Below, piece after piece: positions 7,805-56,372 of a stretch of 64,000 bases of DNA. Each line of letters starts with the position of its first letter. Within the stretch, counting starts at the first letter, position 1. Below the pieces are notes generated by a model. It saw only the letters and a program-made list of their open reading frames with translations. It made no database searches and was not told the origin of the DNA. The DNA comes from Alloalcanivorax xenomutans (GTDB taxonomy: Bacteria > Pseudomonadota > Gammaproteobacteria > Pseudomonadales > Alcanivoracaceae), in NCBI RefSeq assembly GCF_900217905.1, contig NZ_OBMO01000017.1, positions 1 to 64,000 on the forward strand. Reading direction: 5' to 3'. A program made the position numbers and the translations under genes.

Positions 7805-9124
7805 TCACCAACCAATGGCCTTGGGCAGCCAGGTGGCCACTTCGGGCACGAAGAACAGGATCATCACCGCCAGCATCTGCAACAACACAAACGGCAAGGC
7901 ACCGAGATAAATGTGACGGGTGGTGATACCCGGCGGCGCCACGCCCTTGAGGAAGAACAGCGCCCAGCCAAACGGCGGCGTCAGGAACGACATTTGCAGA
8001 TTCATCGCCACCAGCGTCGCCAGCCACACCATGTCGGTGCCATAGCCATGGAACACCGGCAGAAACATGGGCAACGCGATATAGGAAATCTCGATCCACT
8101 CGAGAAAGAAGCCGAGCACGAACAACAGCAACATCAGAAACAATACGGCGCCAATTTCGCCCCCGGGCAGCAGCGCGAACAGCTCATGCACCAGGTGATC
8201 GCCTCCGAGCCCACGGAAGGCCAGCGCGAAGGGCTGAGCGCACAACAGGATGAAGAACACCATGGCGGTGATGGTCAGGGTGCCGTGCAGCGTTTCGCGT
8301 AGCAACGTGGCGTTCATACGGCGGGCGGCGAGCGCGATCAAGGCGCTGCCGAGCGCCCCCATGGAGGCCGCTTCGGTGGGCGCGGCGATACCGGCGATGA
8401 TCGACCCCAGCACCGCCATCATCAGCAGCAACGGCGGCAAAACGGTGCGCAGCAGGTCACGGCCCAGCCCACCCGATGTCGCCCGCTCCCCGGCGGGAAT
8501 CGCCGGCACCCAGGATGGCCGCCACCGGCCCAGTATCAGCAGGAACACAACGTACACCAGCGCCAGCACCAGGCCGGGCAGGAACGCCGCGGCGAACAGC
8601 GTGCCCACCGATTCACCGACGATTTCGGCAAGCAGAATCAGCACCAGACTGGGGGGAATGATTTGCCCCAGCGTGCCCGACGCGCAAATCGTGCCGGAGG
8701 CGATGGACGGGGCGTAACCACGACGCATCAACGTCGGCAGGGTCAGCATCGCCACGGTCACCACGGTGGCGCCGACAATACCGGTGGACGCCCCCATCAG
8801 CACACCGACAATGACGATGGCGATGCCCATGCCGCCGTTCACCGGCCCCATCAGGCGGCCGATGGTTTCCAGCATGTCCTCGGCCACCCGCGATTTTTCC
8901 AGCATCACGCCCATGAACACGAACAGTGGGATCGCCAGCATGGTGTAATTGGTGACCACGCCGTAGAGGCGCGCGGGCAACAGCGAAAACAGCATGGGGC
9001 CGAAGCCGATGAAGCCGACGGTGAACCCCGATACCGCCAGTGAGATCGCCACCGGCACGCCGATCATCATCAGCGTCAGAAAGCCGCCGATCAGCGCCAG
9101 TATCAACCATTCATTACCGCTCAT
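7805..9124 (-). CDS. dctM: TRAP transporter large permease, DctM family
   Basis: 439 residues with about a dozen membrane helices, typical of the DctM subunit that carries out Na+-driven uptake of organic acids. The N-terminus has GGFLTLMMIGVPVAISLAVS, followed by LLPARLYGVVTNYTMLAIPL, a conserved DctM region. The start codon overlaps the dctQ stop (ATGA, 9121-9124). It is the last gene of dctPQM; the substrate is set by DctP. Confidence 0.95.
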   Translation of the reverse strand: MSGNEWLILALIGGFLTLMMIGVPVAISLAVSGFTVGFIGFGPMLFSLLPARLYGVVTNYTMLAIPLFVFMGVMLEKSRVAEDMLETIGRLMGPVNGGMGIAIVIVGVLMGASTGIVGATVVTVAMLTLPTLMRRGYAPSIASGTICASGTLGQIIPPSLVLILLAEIVGESVGTLFAAAFLPGLVLALVYVVFLLILGRWRPSWVPAIPAGERATSGGLGRDLLRTVLPPLLLMMAVLGSIIAGIAAPTEAASMGALGSALIALAARRMNATLLRETLHGTLTITAMVFFILLCAQPFALAFRGLGGDHLVHELFALLPGGEIGAVLFLMLLLFVLGFFLEWIEISYIALPMFLPVFHGYGTDMVWLATLVAMNLQMSFLTPPFGWALFFLKGVAPPGITTRHIYLGALPFVLLQMLAVMILFFVPEVATWLPKAIGW

Positions 9125-9678
9125 GGGCGGGGCTCCCGGCTATCCTCGGGTGCTGCGCGGGAAAACAACCGCGCCCCGGCACGCAGCACGTCGATCAATC
9201 CCTGCAACGCCAGTAACGCGAATCCCAATGGAATGAATACTTTGAGCAAATAGCGGTAAGGCAGGCCGCCGGGATCCGGCGATCCCTCACCGGTGTGATA
9301 GGACTGCATCACATAGGGTATCGCCAGCGTGGCGATAAGCGCGCCGACCGCCAGGGTCAACAGACTGGCGAGCAAATCGACCCATCCACGCGTGCGCGGC
9401 CCGAAGCGTTCATAAAGAAAATCCACCCGCACATCCGCGCGGTGATAGACCGCGTAGGCCATGCCGAGCAACGCGATCGGCGAGACCAGATGCCATTCGG
9501 CTTCCTGCATGCCCACCGGACTCCAGGACAACACATAACGCAGCAGCACATTGGTGGCGACCAGAACCACCAGCATCAGCACGGCGGCACGGGCCACCCA
9601 GCCTGCGGCCCGCACCACGGGCTCCAGGCGCTTCACTACAAAACGGTTCAACAACCCATCCATCAGCAAGGCTCTCAC
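9121..9678 (-). CDS. dctQ: TRAP transporter small permease, DctQ family
   Basis: 185 residues with four predicted membrane helices, as expected for DctQ (RAAVLMLVVLVATNVLLRYV near 30-50; later LLASLLTLAVGALIATLAIP). WSPVGMQEAEWHLVSPIALL is a typical DctQ stretch. The GTG at 9678 overlaps the dctP stop (GTGA). An ATG five codons later (9663) is an equally possible start. It forms the membrane complex with DctM. Confidence 0.93.
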   Translation of the reverse strand: MRALLMDGLLNRFVVKRLEPVVRAAGWVARAAVLMLVVLVATNVLLRYVLSWSPVGMQEAEWHLVSPIALLGMAYAVYHRADVRVDFLYERFGPRTRGWVDLLASLLTLAVGALIATLAIPYVMQSYHTGEGSPDPGGLPYRYLLKVFIPLGFALLALQGLIDVLRAGARLFSRAAPEDSREPRP

Positions 9679-10763
9679 AGCATCATGAAGGCTTTTTCGC
9701 TCACCGCCGCCCAGGACTCGTGTTTGCCACGGAAATCCATGAAGGCGTCGTGCACCTTGCGCGTGGTTTTATCCGCCTTGGCCAGACTTTCGAGGGTTTC
9801 GGCGGTGACCTCCTTCAATTTCGCCACCACGTCCGCCGGCAACGGCCGGGCATCCACGCCTTCATTGGTGACCAGGTCGGTCAGGGCATCGGCGTTGACC
9901 GCTTCACACCAGGCATGGCTCTCCACATTGCACGCTTGCGCGGCGGTCCGTACCACCGCTCGCAAATCCTCGGGCAGGCTGTCCCAGGCTTTTTTGTTGA
10001 TGATCAGTTCGGTGACGTTGGTCGGCTCGTGCCAACCGGTGGTGTAATAGTATTTGGCCGCCTTGTGCAGCCCGAGACGCCGGTCCTGGTAGGGACCAAC
10101 AAACTCGGCGGCATCGATCACGCCCCGCTCCAGCGCCGGAAAGATTTCGCCGCCGGGCAACAGGCGCACGGTCACGCCAAGCTCGGCGTAGACCCGGCCC
10201 GCCAACCCCGGGATACGCATCTTGAGCCCATCCAGATCGCCAACATTTTCAATCGGCTTGCGGAACCAGCCCGTCATTTGGGTACCGGTGTTGCCCATTG
10301 GCATGGCCACCAGCCCGTGCTCGGCGTAGATCTGGTTCCATAATTCCAGGCCGCCACCGTGGTAAATCCAGGCGTTCATGCCCTGTGTGTTCATGCCGAA
10401 AGGTACCGTGGTGAAGTACTGCGCGGCGGGAATTCTGCCGGCCCAGAAATAGGCGTTGGCGGCGTTCATCTCCACCAGCCCCTTGGACACCGCGTCGAAC
10501 CCTTCCATGGCGGGAATCAATTCGCCAGCGGCGAAATGCTGGATCTTCAGACGCCCGCCGGAGAGGATTTCCACTTTCTTGCAAAAGTCGGTGGGACTGC
10601 CCGGCCCCTGCACATAGAACGGCGCGCCCGGCGGGTAGGCGTTGGTCATCTTCCAGTTGAACGTGGTTTGCGACTCCGCGCGAACAACGGCGGGGGCACC
10701 CAGTATCGCGCCGGACGCGGCGGCCCCGGCGGTGGCGAGGAACTTGCGGCGATTCAGGGTCAT
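9675..10763 (-). CDS. dctP: TRAP transporter solute-binding protein, DctP family, Tat-exported
   Basis: 362 residues. The N-terminus MTLNRRKFLATAGAAASGA is a twin-arginine signal ending near VVRA-ES, so the protein is folded before export. The mature part begins TTFNWKMTNAYPPGAPFY and contains FAAGELIPAMEGFDAVSKG, typical of the DctP subgroup that includes keto-acid binders such as TakP. The ligand, probably an organic or keto acid, is inferred from family only. AGGAGCAG lies upstream of the ATG. A sigma-54-type promoter sits about 58 bases upstream. Confidence 0.95.
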   Translation of the reverse strand: MTLNRRKFLATAGAAASGAILGAPAVVRAESQTTFNWKMTNAYPPGAPFYVQGPGSPTDFCKKVEILSGGRLKIQHFAAGELIPAMEGFDAVSKGLVEMNAANAYFWAGRIPAAQYFTTVPFGMNTQGMNAWIYHGGGLELWNQIYAEHGLVAMPMGNTGTQMTGWFRKPIENVGDLDGLKMRIPGLAGRVYAELGVTVRLLPGGEIFPALERGVIDAAEFVGPYQDRRLGLHKAAKYYYTTGWHEPTNVTELIINKKAWDSLPEDLRAVVRTAAQACNVESHAWCEAVNADALTDLVTNEGVDARPLPADVVAKLKEVTAETLESLAKADKTTRKVHDAFMDFRGKHESWAAVSEKAFMML

Positions 10764-51272: not shown

Positions 51273-51992
51273 CTACCATTGCATGTCCGGCATCGCCTGG
51301 AAGGCACCACGCAAAGCCTGAGACCAGGCCTCGCCCAACGCCCGGAAGCCCTCGTGATGCTCATCCACATCATAGTGAAGATGGTCATCAAAGCTGTCGC
51401 GGGGATACTTGAGAACATCCAGGGGCAAGCCCACCGACAGGTTGGAACGAAGGGTGGAATCGATACTCAGCAAGGCGCACTTGATGCCATCGTCCAGGGA
51501 GGTACGGTATTCCACCACCCGGTCGATGATCGGCTTGCCGTACTTGGTTTCGCCGATCTGAAAGTACGGCGTGTCCGCCGTGCATTCGATGAAATTGCCT
51601 TCCGGGTAGACCAGAAACAGCCGCGGCGCTTCACCGCGAATTTGTCCCCCGACGATGAAGCTGCTGCCGAAATCCACCGACCCCTGCGTCTGACCGGCGT
51701 CGCGCTGACGCACTTCGCGGCTGGTGGCACCGACAATGGCCGCCACATCATACAGCGAGCCGACGCCGTTGAGATTGGGCCGGTCGCTGTCCAGACGCAT
51801 GCGCAACAGGCTGACCACGCTCTGAGTGGTGGCCAGGTTACCGGCGCTAAGCAGAACCACCAGACGCTCCCCGGACACCTGGAAGGTATGCAGCTTGCGA
51901 AACGTGGCGATCTGATCCACGCCGGCGTTGGTCCGCGAATCCGCGGCGAACACCAGCCCTTGTTCCAGGCGCATGGCGACACAATAGGTCAT
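51273..51992 (-). CDS. Anbu, proteasome-like Ntn-hydrolase
   Basis: 239 residues. MTYCVAMRLEQGLVFAADSR places Thr2 as the N-terminal nucleophile after Met removal; DSRTNAG and FRKLHTF supply the usual Asp and Lys region. VVLLSAGNLATTQSVVSLLR and AAIVGATSREVRQRD are typical of Anbu (ancestral beta subunit). Anbu assembles in open ring or helical forms; its substrate is unknown. The ATG at 51992 has GGGAGAAACCG upstream. It is the last gene of the four-gene cluster and is convergent with the oxidoreductase, seven bases apart. Confidence 0.93.
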   Translation of the reverse strand: MTYCVAMRLEQGLVFAADSRTNAGVDQIATFRKLHTFQVSGERLVVLLSAGNLATTQSVVSLLRMRLDSDRPNLNGVGSLYDVAAIVGATSREVRQRDAGQTQGSVDFGSSFIVGGQIRGEAPRLFLVYPEGNFIECTADTPYFQIGETKYGKPIIDRVVEYRTSLDDGIKCALLSIDSTLRSNLSVGLPLDVLKYPRDSFDDHLHYDVDEHHEGFRALGEAWSQALRGAFQAMPDMQW

Positions 51993-52008
51993 CGGTTTCT
52001 CCCGGCGA

Positions 52009-52806
52009 TCACTGATCCCCGGCGCCGGTCTGCCGCACCAGGGCCGCCGCTCGCAGGGATTCCACGCCACCACCGTAACGGACGCCGCGTACCGGGCAGG
52101 CGTCCAGATAATCGAAGCCCACCGCCAGCTTCAGATGGCGTCTCGGACGGCGGGTCTGATTGGTCACGTCAAAAGTGTGCCAGCGTTCATCGAACCAGAC
52201 CTCGGCCCAGGCATGGCTGGCGACGTGCTCGGAATCATCGCTGTAAAGATAGCCGCTGACGTAGCGGGCGGGAATCCCCAGGGCCCGGCAGCAGGACAGA
52301 AATACATGGGTATGATCCTGACACACCCCTTTCCTCAACCGATATGCCTCGGCGGCGGTGCTGGACACATCGGTGACGCCGGGCGTAAACGGCATTCTCG
52401 ACAGGATGGTTTCGCTCAACCTCTCAAGATTGGCCAGGATCCCGGCGGCGCACTGATGGTTCCGGGCCAGTTCATGGAGCAACGAATCCGGACGGGTAAA
52501 CGGAGAATAACGGCAGTAAACCAGAGGGGAAATCCGGGTGTCATCGTCCTCACGGTCCTCGCCCTCGATTTCCACTTCGCCAGTGGCGGTGAGACGTATG
52601 GCCTCGTGGGGCTGGTCCAGGGTCAGCACGTGCAGGATATTACCGAAGCCATCGGAGGCCTCGCTGGCCGGCTCCGGCATGTCCAGATGCCAGTGCAGAA
52701 TACGCTGCCGTGCCGATGGACGCGGCGTCAGCCGCAGATACTGCGTACTGTGCAGCACTTGCTCGGAATAACGGTATTCGGTGCTGTGTCGAATCGACAG
52801 TTTCAT
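52009..52806 (-). CDS. Transglutaminase-like cysteine protease/transferase
   Basis: 265 residues. The N-terminal bacterial transglutaminase domain MKLSIRHSTEYRYSEQVLHS precedes the catalytic core with Cys162 (RKGVCQDHTHVFLSCCR), His198 (ASHAWAEVWFD) and Asp213 (WHTFDVTN). In the Anbu cluster it is thought to cut or rearrange a peptide amide bond. The start overlaps the alpha-E gene stop (52803-52806). Confidence 0.93.
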   Translation of the reverse strand: MKLSIRHSTEYRYSEQVLHSTQYLRLTPRPSARQRILHWHLDMPEPASEASDGFGNILHVLTLDQPHEAIRLTATGEVEIEGEDREDDDTRISPLVYCRYSPFTRPDSLLHELARNHQCAAGILANLERLSETILSRMPFTPGVTDVSSTAAEAYRLRKGVCQDHTHVFLSCCRALGIPARYVSGYLYSDDSEHVASHAWAEVWFDERWHTFDVTNQTRRPRRHLKLAVGFDYLDACPVRGVRYGGGVESLRAAALVRQTGAGDQ

Positions 52807-53744
52807 ACGACCTCCAGATATTCCTCGCGGATGGTATCCGCCAGCTCATTGATACGGCGCAGAAAATCCGTCAGGTAATCGTGCAAACCGGTGTCCAGCA
52901 CATGCTCCAGATCACCGTATTGCAGCCGCGCGAACTGCACCGCCGCCAAGCGCTTGGCGGTCTGCCCGGCCCGCCCCTCGATCGCCGGCAGCAACTCACA
53001 CAGCATCTGCATGCAGGAGCGCAGCGAGCGTGGCACCTCGGCGCCCAGAATCAGCAGCTCCGCCACCCGGTCGGCATTAATGGCCTCGCTGTAAAGCTCG
53101 CGATAGGACTCATACGCCCCCACCGAATGCAGCAAGGCGTGCCAGCGATAGAAGTCCATGGCGTCACCGCCGGAGGGAACGCCGTAAAGAGTGCCGATCT
53201 GATATTTCACATCCAGGATACGGGCCGTGTTATCGGCCCGCTCGATGAAGGTGCCAATGCGCAGAAAGCGGAAGGCATCATTGCGCATGATGGTGCCGTA
53301 GGTGGCGCCACGGAACAGGTGGGAGCGCTTTTTCACCCAATCAAAAAAGGCGCTGGCGCCGTATTGGTCCAGGCCCCCGCGGCGAATTTCCTTCAACTCC
53401 AGCCAGGTGCTGTTGATGCTTTCCCACATCTCGGCGGTGATCTTGCCACGCACCGCGTGGCCGTTTTCCCGCGCCAGACGCAGGCAATTGAAAATACTGC
53501 CGGGGTTGTCCTGATCCAGGGTGAAGAAATGCAGGACCTCGCGCACCTGGACGTCATCGTGCCGGCTCATATACAGCTCATGCGAGCCCGAGATCATCAA
53601 CGGCGCTATCATCTCATCACGGGGATTGGCGACGAACGGCATCATCGACAGATTCCAGGCCACGTCGAGCATGCGAGCGGTGTTCTCGGCCCGCTCAACC
53701 AGGCGGGACAGCCAATACAGGTCGGAGGCGGTGCGACTCAGCAT
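52803..53744 (-). CDS. Alpha-E domain protein
   Basis: 313 residues, almost wholly helical. MLSRTASDLYWLSRLVERAE is the family signature. The FIERADNTARILDVKYQ repeat (about 172-188) gives the conserved E-R-A/D-N helices. The alpha-E domain is always tied to the circularly permuted ATP-grasp enzyme and may serve as its partner or substrate carrier. It overlaps the ATP-grasp stop by seven bases. Confidence 0.93.
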   Translation of the reverse strand: MLSRTASDLYWLSRLVERAENTARMLDVAWNLSMMPFVANPRDEMIAPLMISGSHELYMSRHDDVQVREVLHFFTLDQDNPGSIFNCLRLARENGHAVRGKITAEMWESINSTWLELKEIRRGGLDQYGASAFFDWVKKRSHLFRGATYGTIMRNDAFRFLRIGTFIERADNTARILDVKYQIGTLYGVPSGGDAMDFYRWHALLHSVGAYESYRELYSEAINADRVAELLILGAEVPRSLRSCMQMLCELLPAIEGRAGQTAKRLAAVQFARLQYGDLEHVLDTGLHDYLTDFLRRINELADTIREEYLEVV

Positions 53745-55177
53745 GACGGCGCCTCCACCACCCAGGTGTCCTTGGTACCGCCCCCCTGGGACGAATTCAC
53801 CACCAGCGAACCGGCATTCATCGCCACCCGCGTAAGACCGCCCGGCACCATGCGGGGGGCACGGCCGTCACTGAGCACGAATGGGCGCAAATCGATATGC
53901 CGGGGCGCGATACCCTGCTCGACGAAGATCGGGCAGGTGGACAGCGACAAGGTCGGCTGGGCGATGTAATTATCGGGCCGTGCCCGCAGACGCTGACGAA
54001 AACTCTCGATCTCCTCGCGGCTGGCCGCCGGCCCGACCAGCATGCCGTAACCGCCGGCACCGTGGACCTCCTTAACCACCAGTTCCGGCAGATGCTCCAA
54101 TACGTACTGGAGATCCTCCGGACGGCGACACAGCCGGGTTGGAACATTCTCCAGAATCGGCTCCTCACCCAGGTAGAAGCGGATCATCTCCGGTACATAA
54201 GGGTAAATGGACTTGTCATCGCCGACCCCGGAGCCGATGGCGTTGGCCAGCACCACCTTACCCTGCCGGTACACCGACAGCAGGCCAGGCACTCCCAGCA
54301 TGGAGTCCGGATTGAACGCCAGCGGGTCGAGAAAATCGTCATCAATACGGCGATAGATCACGTCCACCCGTTGCGGCCCGGCGGTGGTGCGCATGTAGAC
54401 GAAGCCATCCTTGACGAACAGATCCGCCCCCTCCACCAACTCGATCCCCATCTGCTGCGCCAGAAAGGCGTGCTCGAAGTAGGCGCTGTTGAAACGCCCC
54501 GGGGTCAGCAGCACCACCGTGGGATAGGGCACGGCGCTGCTGTGCTGCAGGGTATCCAGCAACAGCGATGGATAGTGCTCCACCGGCGCCACCGATTGCC
54601 CGGCGAACAACTCCGGGAACAACCGCATCATCACCCGCCGGTTTTCGATCATGTAGCTGACCCCGGACGGGGTACGCAGATTATCCTCCAGAACGTACCA
54701 GGTTCCCTCTCCGTCACGGATCAGGTCCACGCCGCTGACGTGGCTGTACACCTGGTTGGGCAGATCCACATCCTGCATGCAGGGCTGGTAATGGGCGTTG
54801 CCATAGATCTGGTCGGCGGGAATGCGGCCAGCACGGATGATCTCCTGGCCGTGGTAAATATCATCGAGGAATTGGTTCAGCGCCCTCACCCGCTGGGCCG
54901 TACCCTGCTCCAGGTGGCGCCATTCCTGCTCGGGAATAATGCGGGGAACCACGTCAAAAGGAATCAGCCGCTCCGCGCCGCTCTCCTCGCCGTAGACATT
55001 GAAGGTGATACCAACCCGGTGGAACAGCAGCTCGGCTTCCTGACGCTTGCGGTGCAGGAGCTCCTTGGACTGCCCCAACAACCAGCCGTGATAACTGGAA
55101 TAGTGGGGGCGAACCGCCCCTTCCCTGGCGAACATCTCATCAAAGCCGGACACCGCCGGCGGTGTAATCGACTGCAT
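53738..55177 (-). CDS. Circularly permuted ATP-grasp enzyme (type 2)
   Basis: 479 residues. Family landmarks are FNVYGEESGAERLIPFDVVP, QFLDDIYHGQEIIRAGRIP, VYRQGKVVLANAIGSGVGDD, PELVVKEVHGAGGYGMLVGP (ATP-grasp core) and QPTLSLSTCPIFVEQGIAPR. It is predicted to form peptide or amide bonds with ATP. It is the first gene of the Anbu cluster. AGGGAATAAAG lies before the ATG, and a sigma-54-like promoter lies about 54-70 bases upstream. Confidence 0.94.
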   Translation of the reverse strand: MQSITPPAVSGFDEMFAREGAVRPHYSSYHGWLLGQSKELLHRKRQEAELLFHRVGITFNVYGEESGAERLIPFDVVPRIIPEQEWRHLEQGTAQRVRALNQFLDDIYHGQEIIRAGRIPADQIYGNAHYQPCMQDVDLPNQVYSHVSGVDLIRDGEGTWYVLEDNLRTPSGVSYMIENRRVMMRLFPELFAGQSVAPVEHYPSLLLDTLQHSSAVPYPTVVLLTPGRFNSAYFEHAFLAQQMGIELVEGADLFVKDGFVYMRTTAGPQRVDVIYRRIDDDFLDPLAFNPDSMLGVPGLLSVYRQGKVVLANAIGSGVGDDKSIYPYVPEMIRFYLGEEPILENVPTRLCRRPEDLQYVLEHLPELVVKEVHGAGGYGMLVGPAASREEIESFRQRLRARPDNYIAQPTLSLSTCPIFVEQGIAPRHIDLRPFVLSDGRAPRMVPGGLTRVAMNAGSLVVNSSQGGGTKDTWVVEAPSC

Positions 55178-55230
55178 GGCGCTTTATTCCCTGTGGCCCT
55201 CTCCCCAACGACGGGGATAGCAACAGGCTC

Positions 55231-55247
55231 AGCAAGGGATATGCCAA
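55231..55247 (-). promoter_or_regulatory. Sigma-54-like promoter of the Anbu cluster
   Basis: On the minus strand TTGGCATATCCCTTGCT has TGGCA and TTGCT with the invariant GG and GC ten bases apart. It matches the core TGGCAC-N5-TTGCW at all but one specified base. Transcription would start about 43 bases before the ATP-grasp ATG. I could not find a clear NtrC-type dyad in the 200 bases upstream. Confidence 0.68.
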
Positions 55248-55391
55248 TTCGGGGGCAAAGGATTCAGGGGCATCCGCCCCGGCATGGCGCAGGACCGCGA
55301 TCCATGCTGAAGCAGGCCGACCTTGGGGCACCAAATCGGGGCACGACAAGGCTTCGCCAGCAGGGCAATGGATTCTCCCGTCCCAAAAGCA

Positions 55392-55418
55392 GAAAGCCCG
55401 GCACTAGGCCGGGCTTTC
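55392..55418 (-). terminator. etfBA terminator
   Basis: GAAAGCCCGGC/GCCGGGCTTTC stem with a short loop, about 25 bases past the etfA stop, followed on the minus strand by TGCTTTTGGG. Confidence 0.8.
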
Positions 55419-55442
55419 CAGGGCATCTTCGAATGCGGGCGT

Positions 55443-56372
55443 TCAGAGCTTGCTGTCGAGCTCCGGTACCGCTTCGAACAGATCCGCCACCAGACCGTAG
55501 TCCGCCACCTGGAAGATGGGGGCTTCTTCGTCTTTGTTGATGGCCACGATCACTTTGGAATCCTTCATGCCCGCCAAGTGCTGGATGGCACCGGAGATAC
55601 CGACGGCGATGTACAGGTTCGGGGCAACGATCTTACCGGTCTGACCCACCTGCATGTCGTTCGGCACGAAACCGGCGTCAACGGCGGCGCGGGACGCACC
55701 CACGGCGGCGCCAAGCTTGTCGGCCACTTTGTAGAGGATTTCGAAGTTGTCGCCGTTGCCCATGCCGCGCCCACCGGAGATCACGATGTCGGCGCTGGTC
55801 AGCTCCGGACGGTCGGACTTGGCCAGTTCCTCGCCCACGAAGGAGGAGATACCGGCGTCCTTGACCACGTCAACGCTCTCAACGCTGGCGGAACCGCCTT
55901 CCTCGGCAACGCCGTCGAAGGAGGTGCCGCGCACGGTGAGCACTTTCTTGGCGTCGGCGCATTTCACGGTGGCGATGGCGTTACCGGCGTAGATCGGACG
56001 CTTGAAGGTGTCGCCGTCGACCACGTCGGAGATTTCAGAGATCTGCGGAGCGTCCAGCAGAGCGGCCACGCGCGGCGCGAAGTTCTTGCCGGTGGTGGTG
56101 GCGGCGGCCAGGATGTGGCTGTAGTCGCCGGCCAGTTCAACCACCAGGTCGGCGATGTTTTCCGCCAGCTGGTGCTCGTAGGCGTCGTTGTCGGCGCACA
56201 GCACCTTGCTTACGCCATCAACCTTGGCGGCCGCTTCAGCCACGGCGCCACAACCTTTACCAGCAACCAGGACGGTGATGTCGCCACCGATCTCTTTGGC
56301 GGCGGCAACCACGCTCAGGGTAACCTTGTTGAGCGTAGCGTTATCGTGTTCGGCGTAGACTAAAACACTCAT
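55443..56372 (-). CDS. etfA: Electron transfer flavoprotein alpha subunit
   Basis: 309 residues. The C-terminal FAD domain shows [20 protein letters not shown] (about 198-217), [20 protein letters not shown] and [20 protein letters not shown]. With EtfB it accepts electrons from acyl-CoA and other dehydrogenases. The ATG shares one base with the etfB stop (TGATG). It is the second gene of etfBA. Confidence 0.97.

Follow-up and report, generated by a model that had tools for sequence, protein, structure and literature searches.

The window is the whole stretch of DNA that was analysed, 64,000 nucleotides from Alloalcanivorax xenomutans. Its minus strand carries a cluster of four genes encoding a circularly permuted ATP-grasp protein (53738..55177; CP_ATPgrasp_2, PF14403, E=3.5e-167), an Alpha-E protein (52803..53744; PF04168, E=4.2e-95), a transglutaminase-like protein (52009..52806; PF08379 and PF01841, Bact_transglu_N/Transglut_core) and the proteasome-like protein Anbu (51273..51992; Proteasome, PF00227, E=6.7e-11), which we take to be COG3484. 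The second and third genes each overlap the preceding one. The start of Anbu was set at the methionine of MTYC, where relatives align from residue 1; the listed open reading frame begins upstream, at 52073. The order ATP-grasp, Alpha-E, transglutaminase, Anbu is that of the Anbu operon, whose gene set and conserved order are described in PMC6376114.

The cluster is preceded by a gap extending from the end of the ETF alpha gene (55443) to the ATG of the ATP-grasp gene (55177). Just past the ETF alpha stop, a terminator-like hairpin (55395..55410, minus strand) lies 3' of that gene and would set the cluster apart from the etf genes. Since terminator-like matches in this region do not exceed those in shuffles (4 versus 3.3 expected), the hairpin is weak by itself. 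Long open frames run antisense to the Anbu cluster (53897-55540 on the plus strand, also 52710-53969 and 51354-52259) and probably arise from the high G+C content of the coding sequence.

The sigma-54 element and its rarity in the genome

The gap between the etf genes and the cluster contains the 17-mer TTGGCATATCCCTTGCT (minus strand, 55247-55231), in which the earlier note had recognised a sigma-54-like promoter of the Anbu cluster. This description is borne out: the sequence is present, the GG and GC of the -24 and -12 boxes have the required 10 bases between them and the first gene of the cluster follows downstream. The element itself, TGGCATATCCCTTGCT (55231..55246, minus strand), is an exact match to the sigma-54 consensus and lies 54 nt from the ATG of the ATP-grasp gene. 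Transcription from sigma-54 promoters generally starts about 12 nt past the -12 GC. By this geometry the predicted start is position 55220 (minus strand), 12 nt past the -12 C, which would leave a leader of about 43 nt. A sigma-70-like site was looked for in the cluster leader and none was found.

A scan with a loose pattern allowing two mismatches found 33 sites on the two strands of the window versus 33.2 expected and was thus uninformative; because it gave no signal above chance, exact and weighted scans were adopted. The exact pattern occurs twice in the window and 12 times in the genome as a whole (4.35 Mb), compared with 5 matches for a reversed-pattern control. In 11 of the 12 cases the match precedes, on the right strand, an open reading frame of a recognised family whose start codon is 39-193 nt from the motif start. 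These frames comprise glnA (glutamine synthetase), nirB (nitrite reductase), rpoN (sigma-54), a DctP gene and the cluster's ATP-grasp gene, together with genes for an AraC-type regulator, an ANTAR response regulator, an NMT1_2 binding protein, a Rieske oxygenase, a Peripla_BP_6 binding protein and an amidohydrolase. The twelfth match (L212) is followed only by a 71-aa frame without family assignment. Two of the exact matches (L221 and L222, at C41:26240-26651 of G000) are divergent and lie between the periplasmic binding protein and amidohydrolase genes, which suggests a divergent sigma-54-controlled gene pair.

The second exact match in the window (10836-10821, minus strand) is located 73 nt, counted from the motif start, from the ATG of a DctP-type TRAP transporter gene (9675-10763), which is followed on the same strand by open reading frames at 9121-9678 and 7805-9124. 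The earlier note had used this promoter to strengthen the case for the one in front of the Anbu cluster. A site of the same type is indeed present, but the usual activator of dctP is a different protein, DctD, and the dctP promoter therefore shows only that sigma-54 promoters occur here. The window's genome contains both rpoN and ntrC, the latter scoring 749.3 bits against a cut-off of 558.6.

Conservation of the element and NtrC-type palindromes

Conservation was measured with a sigma-54 weight matrix set from the general features of such promoters. Among close relatives, a match was obtained in 33 of 57 genomes, which gave 30 loci for the scan. In 29 of these 30 close loci the cluster is preceded by a site with a score of at least 14 (reverse complement 0/30), the sole miss being L030 at 52% identity. 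For an alignment of leaders we selected 20 of the 30 loci, leaving out L030, the close locus lacking the site. Although mean column identity in this alignment is only 34%, the TGGC and TGC of the element are invariant, as is one C just before the start codon, so that in these 20 leaders the element is conserved above its surroundings.

These data bear on the possibility that the element is a chance match and that transcription of the cluster starts at a sigma-70 promoter that escaped recognition or continues into it from the etf genes. Loose matches are common, as the 33 found versus 33.2 expected illustrate, and would fit such a view. However, the exact match is rare, its bases are, apart from the single C, the only invariant columns in a diverged leader, the leader has no sigma-70-like site and a terminator-like hairpin follows the ETF alpha gene. 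With the published mutant data considered below also taken into account, we regard a chance match as very improbable.

Beyond close relatives, named loci were taken as the best 80 of 593 confirmed among the matches listed, mostly beta- and gammaproteobacteria by their titles. Scores of at least 14, 13 and 12 are reached by 41, 49 and 56 of these 80 best matches, respectively; 39 thus fall below 14 and 24 below 12. At the same threshold of 14, the reverse complement gives 2/80, and control windows from the first 4.5 kb of the named loci, on both strands, give 29/2,074, a conservative rate since the windows of a few loci include the cluster itself. The site counts across loci are not independent because the sequences are related. 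The conservation of a -24/-12 across species that the earlier note had proposed as a check is therefore found in the close relatives and in many, not all, of the other loci. Several loci retain the -24 box while the -12 box varies, being TTGAT for example in Undibacterium, Duganella and Rugamonas. In seven loci (L149, L161, L164, L171, L188, L236 and L246) the -24 box lies 25-73 nt before the start codon and TTGCT is replaced by TTGAT at -12, which is an unusual way for the GC to be altered.

Two NtrC-like palindromes lie upstream of the element in the window. The first, TGCCCCGATTTGGTGCC (55327..55343, minus strand), agrees with the consensus at 10/12 positions and is centred about 115 nt ahead of the predicted start. 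The second, TGCGCCATGCCGGGGCG (55275..55291, minus strand), agrees at 9/12 (9/10 core positions, shuffle p 0.105), and the two are 52 bp apart, about five helical turns. As background, 1,388 overlapping windows of 250 nt were drawn from ten loci in the same genome, including those of the glnA and ANTAR-regulator sites; 48 of these windows score at least 10/12. Since a consensus scan of the window gave 4 NtrC matches versus 5.5 expected, its sites cannot be claimed alone; they are imperfect, not individually significant and by themselves weak evidence. A comparison is offered by glnA in the same genome (G000 C4), whose promoter likewise combines an exact sigma-54 match, TGGCACGTAATTTGCT, with two NtrC-like sites, which start at -79 and -109 from the motif. 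There both sites agree with the consensus at 10 of 12 positions and the distance between them is 30 bp, compared with scores of 10 and 9 and a distance of 52 bp in the Anbu cluster.

The signal is clearer in the orthologous set. In upstream segments of 57 representatives, hand-picked among loci with a site and including several genera more than once, GCRCY-N5-RGYGC occurs as 19 sites in 17 segments, compared with 0 to 4 sites for each of the other spacers from 0 to 15. Among 60 orders of the half-site letters the real order ranks first; the GCACC half-sites that it matches can also be matched by the two orders next in rank (18 and 15 sites). Full NtrC matches were found in 9/27 family loci (0.4 expected), 4/16 of Pseudomonas (0.2), 2/6 of Enterobacterales (0.0), 8/31 other named loci (0.7), 1/2 at the order level and 1/26 in the class sample (0.3). 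These palindromes, together with rpoN and ntrC in the same genome, lend support to the nitrogen signal that the earlier note had proposed.

The promoter might instead be a genuine sigma-54 promoter served by an activator other than NtrC, for example of DctD, NifA or stress type. In favour of this can be cited the further NtrC-family proteins that fall below the ntrC cut-off in the window's genome, the imperfection of the window's palindromes and the class sample, whose 23 segments upstream of sites show no spacer enrichment, with 1 site at spacer 5. Against it speak the spacer-5 enrichment in the 57 representatives, the NtrC dependence reported for a Burkholderia cenocepacia cluster and the nitrogen induction of the Pseudomonas putida cluster (both discussed below). 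A different activator consequently appears improbable to us, if less so than a chance match.

Anbu or the ATP-grasp/Alpha-E core

Does the promoter belong to Anbu or to the genes in front of it? In the class sample a match was present in 85 of 276 genomes, from which 89 loci were taken, leaving out paralogues of about 850 aa and fragments; four loci from the close-relatives search brought the number to 93. A score of at least 14 is reached by 19/93 (reverse complement 3/93): 1/7 with Anbu downstream, 15/76 without an Anbu match and 3/10 with too little sequence to tell. For the 76 loci without an Anbu match, the reverse complement gives 1/76 and the control windows 29/2,074. Six of the seven Anbu-linked clusters are below 14, one of them at 12.1, and the genomes of these six encode a sigma-54 DNA-binding domain, as do 79 of 80 genomes tested.

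A phylum sample was built from Anbu instead, which was found in 115 of 299 genomes; 60 loci were taken. Where Anbu is linked to ATP-grasp, at least 14 is reached by 7/13 clusters of the same class and by 5/29 scorable clusters of other classes, presumably mostly Alphaproteobacteria, one more such cluster being without upstream sequence. In other classes of the phylum, most of the sampled clusters thus lack the element. No site scoring at least 14 precedes any of the 17 Anbu genes that lack an ATP-grasp match in the fetched stretch.

Pseudomonas provides the complementary case. Among its 20 named loci (within the best 80 of 593 matches listed), 12 have Alpha-E and transglutaminase and no Anbu match within 6 kb (L138, L152 and ten more), and 11 of these 12 score at least 14. 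A further Anbu-less sister cluster, L125 in G038, includes a 1118-aa transglutaminase-type frame and has a very strong sigma-54 match, TGGCACATGAATTGCA.

Because of these linkage counts in the class, phylum and Pseudomonas loci, the promoter appears to be tied to the ATP-grasp/Alpha-E core in certain lineages and not to Anbu. The earlier note had placed the Anbu system under sigma-54. A promoter does stand before the cluster, but it is not apparently attached to Anbu itself, as the 0/17 unlinked genes indicate. It is accordingly somewhat probable that the promoter serves the ATP-grasp/Alpha-E/transglutaminase core with Anbu as a mere passenger, in which case nitrogen control of Anbu as such would be a misleading description; this would be compatible with an NtrC-activated promoter of the whole operon. 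The Anbu-less Pseudomonas loci, the 15/76 class loci and the unlinked Anbu genes all favour a passenger role. On the other side, the window's Anbu was the sole query used to judge linkage, so that a divergent Anbu could have escaped, and a tree of 245 ATP-grasp proteins relating site to Anbu linkage yields 18 independent pairs of which only about 3 differ in linkage, too few to decide between the two. In that tree 23 loci whose downstream sequence is short were entered as linked; linkage is confirmed for the window and G003 only and assumed for 21 close relatives.

Nitrogen control in other bacteria and its meaning

The nearest known system is the PP_2688-PP_2685 cluster of P. putida KT2440, with ATP-grasp (PP_2688), transglutaminase (PP_2686) and Anbu-type (PP_2685) genes and induction upon nitrogen limitation. 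Nitrogen control of this cluster is already in print, and the promoter in the window adds a well-supported further case of a wiring whose outline was known. The PP_2688 promoter, tested as an upstream stretch of about 200-300 bp, is induced 3.7-fold on nitrogen depletion (PMC8050072). What PMC8050072 reports is the response of this upstream stretch as a whole. The stretch just upstream of PP_2685 is, in contrast to that of PP_2688, not nitrogen-responsive (PMC8050072), which also speaks for Anbu as a passenger. Induction of PP_2685 itself was given as log2 4.44 in PMC8050072 and as 11.1 in PMC3325844; unlike these two studies, Table 2 of PMC7801951 lists only 1.12-fold in the wild type. PMC5666114 describes the operon proteins as constitutive and moderate in level, with no change in various conditions other than nitrogen limitation in P. 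putida; both PMC5666114 and PMC6376114 cite the nitrogen induction of the P. putida cluster.

Apart from being another organism, P. putida differs in one respect. PMC7801951 assigns its cluster to NtrB/NtrC, yet in the RNA-seq data of Table 2 the rpoN mutant keeps the induction of PP_2686-2688 (14.2, 16.0 and 19.6-fold, versus 12.6, 11.0 and 14.7 in the wild type). This is the outcome that the earlier note had named as refuting its claim, reported in that paper for P. putida. It conflicts with the sequence evidence for sigma-54 control and speaks for a chance match. In the same study, urtA-D, likewise assigned to NtrB/NtrC, also stay induced in the rpoN mutant (PMC7801951), and therefore the fault may lie with the mutant, with the conditions or with the dependence that was assumed.

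In B. cenocepacia H111, the cluster I35_5080-83 is both NtrC- and sigma-54-dependent under nitrogen limitation (PMC5491218). One difference is its large transglutaminase-like protein. The text of PMC5491218 uses neither the word proteasome nor the word ATP-grasp, and the cluster is probably an Anbu-less sister cluster like L125. Moreover, the proteasome-type protease COG3484 is over-represented in the sigma-54 regulons predicted for alpha-, beta- and gammaproteobacteria (PMC12316311), and the domains of the cluster have been associated with urea metabolism in marine data (PMC3597751). Three further papers concern other systems: the rlo operon (PMC12239564), an inactive transglutaminase (PMC12096838) and NtrC of Caulobacter, whose one transglutaminase passage deals with hvyA (PMC10274813). 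Within the openly licensed literature that was searched, no report was found of a conserved -24/-12 element with NtrC palindromes before this cluster. What appears to be new is the breadth of conservation, the evidence from NtrC spacing and the apparent attachment of the promoter to the core and not to Anbu.

The element is best read as the NtrC-activated sigma-54 -24/-12 promoter of the ATP-grasp/Alpha-E/transglutaminase/Anbu operon, to which we give a probability of about 85%. The earlier note was right on the promoter and probably right on nitrogen. RNA polymerase with sigma-54 would bind the element and stay inactive until, under nitrogen scarcity, formation of the open complex is driven by phosphorylated NtrC at the two palindromes, whose starts lie about 45 and 97 bp upstream. 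The operon would thereby join the same nitrogen-starvation set as glnA and nirB of the window's genome. For the window's species we infer this binding, the transcription start and the nitrogen response from the site and its context. The wiring would belong to the ATP-grasp/Alpha-E core, with or without transglutaminase, in beta- and gammaproteobacterial lineages, and Anbu would come under it where it is part of the operon.

Structures of Anbu have been solved; of the two structural papers, one reports that no peptidase activity was detected (PMC6376114) and the other leaves the identification of its substrates to future work (PMC5666114). An NtrC-sigma-54-type promoter conserved in many genera means that the cluster is probably used in nitrogen starvation, and it suggests that the search for function should start at the ATP-grasp/Alpha-E/transglutaminase core. 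As a tentative proposal, to which we give slightly less than even weight, nitrogen control may go with the core and not with Anbu. The beta- and gammaproteobacterial core would be an NtrC-sigma-54 nitrogen-starvation module often lacking Anbu, and Anbu would serve as an accessory peptidase for the amide-linked product made by a set of enzymes that scavenge or store nitrogen.
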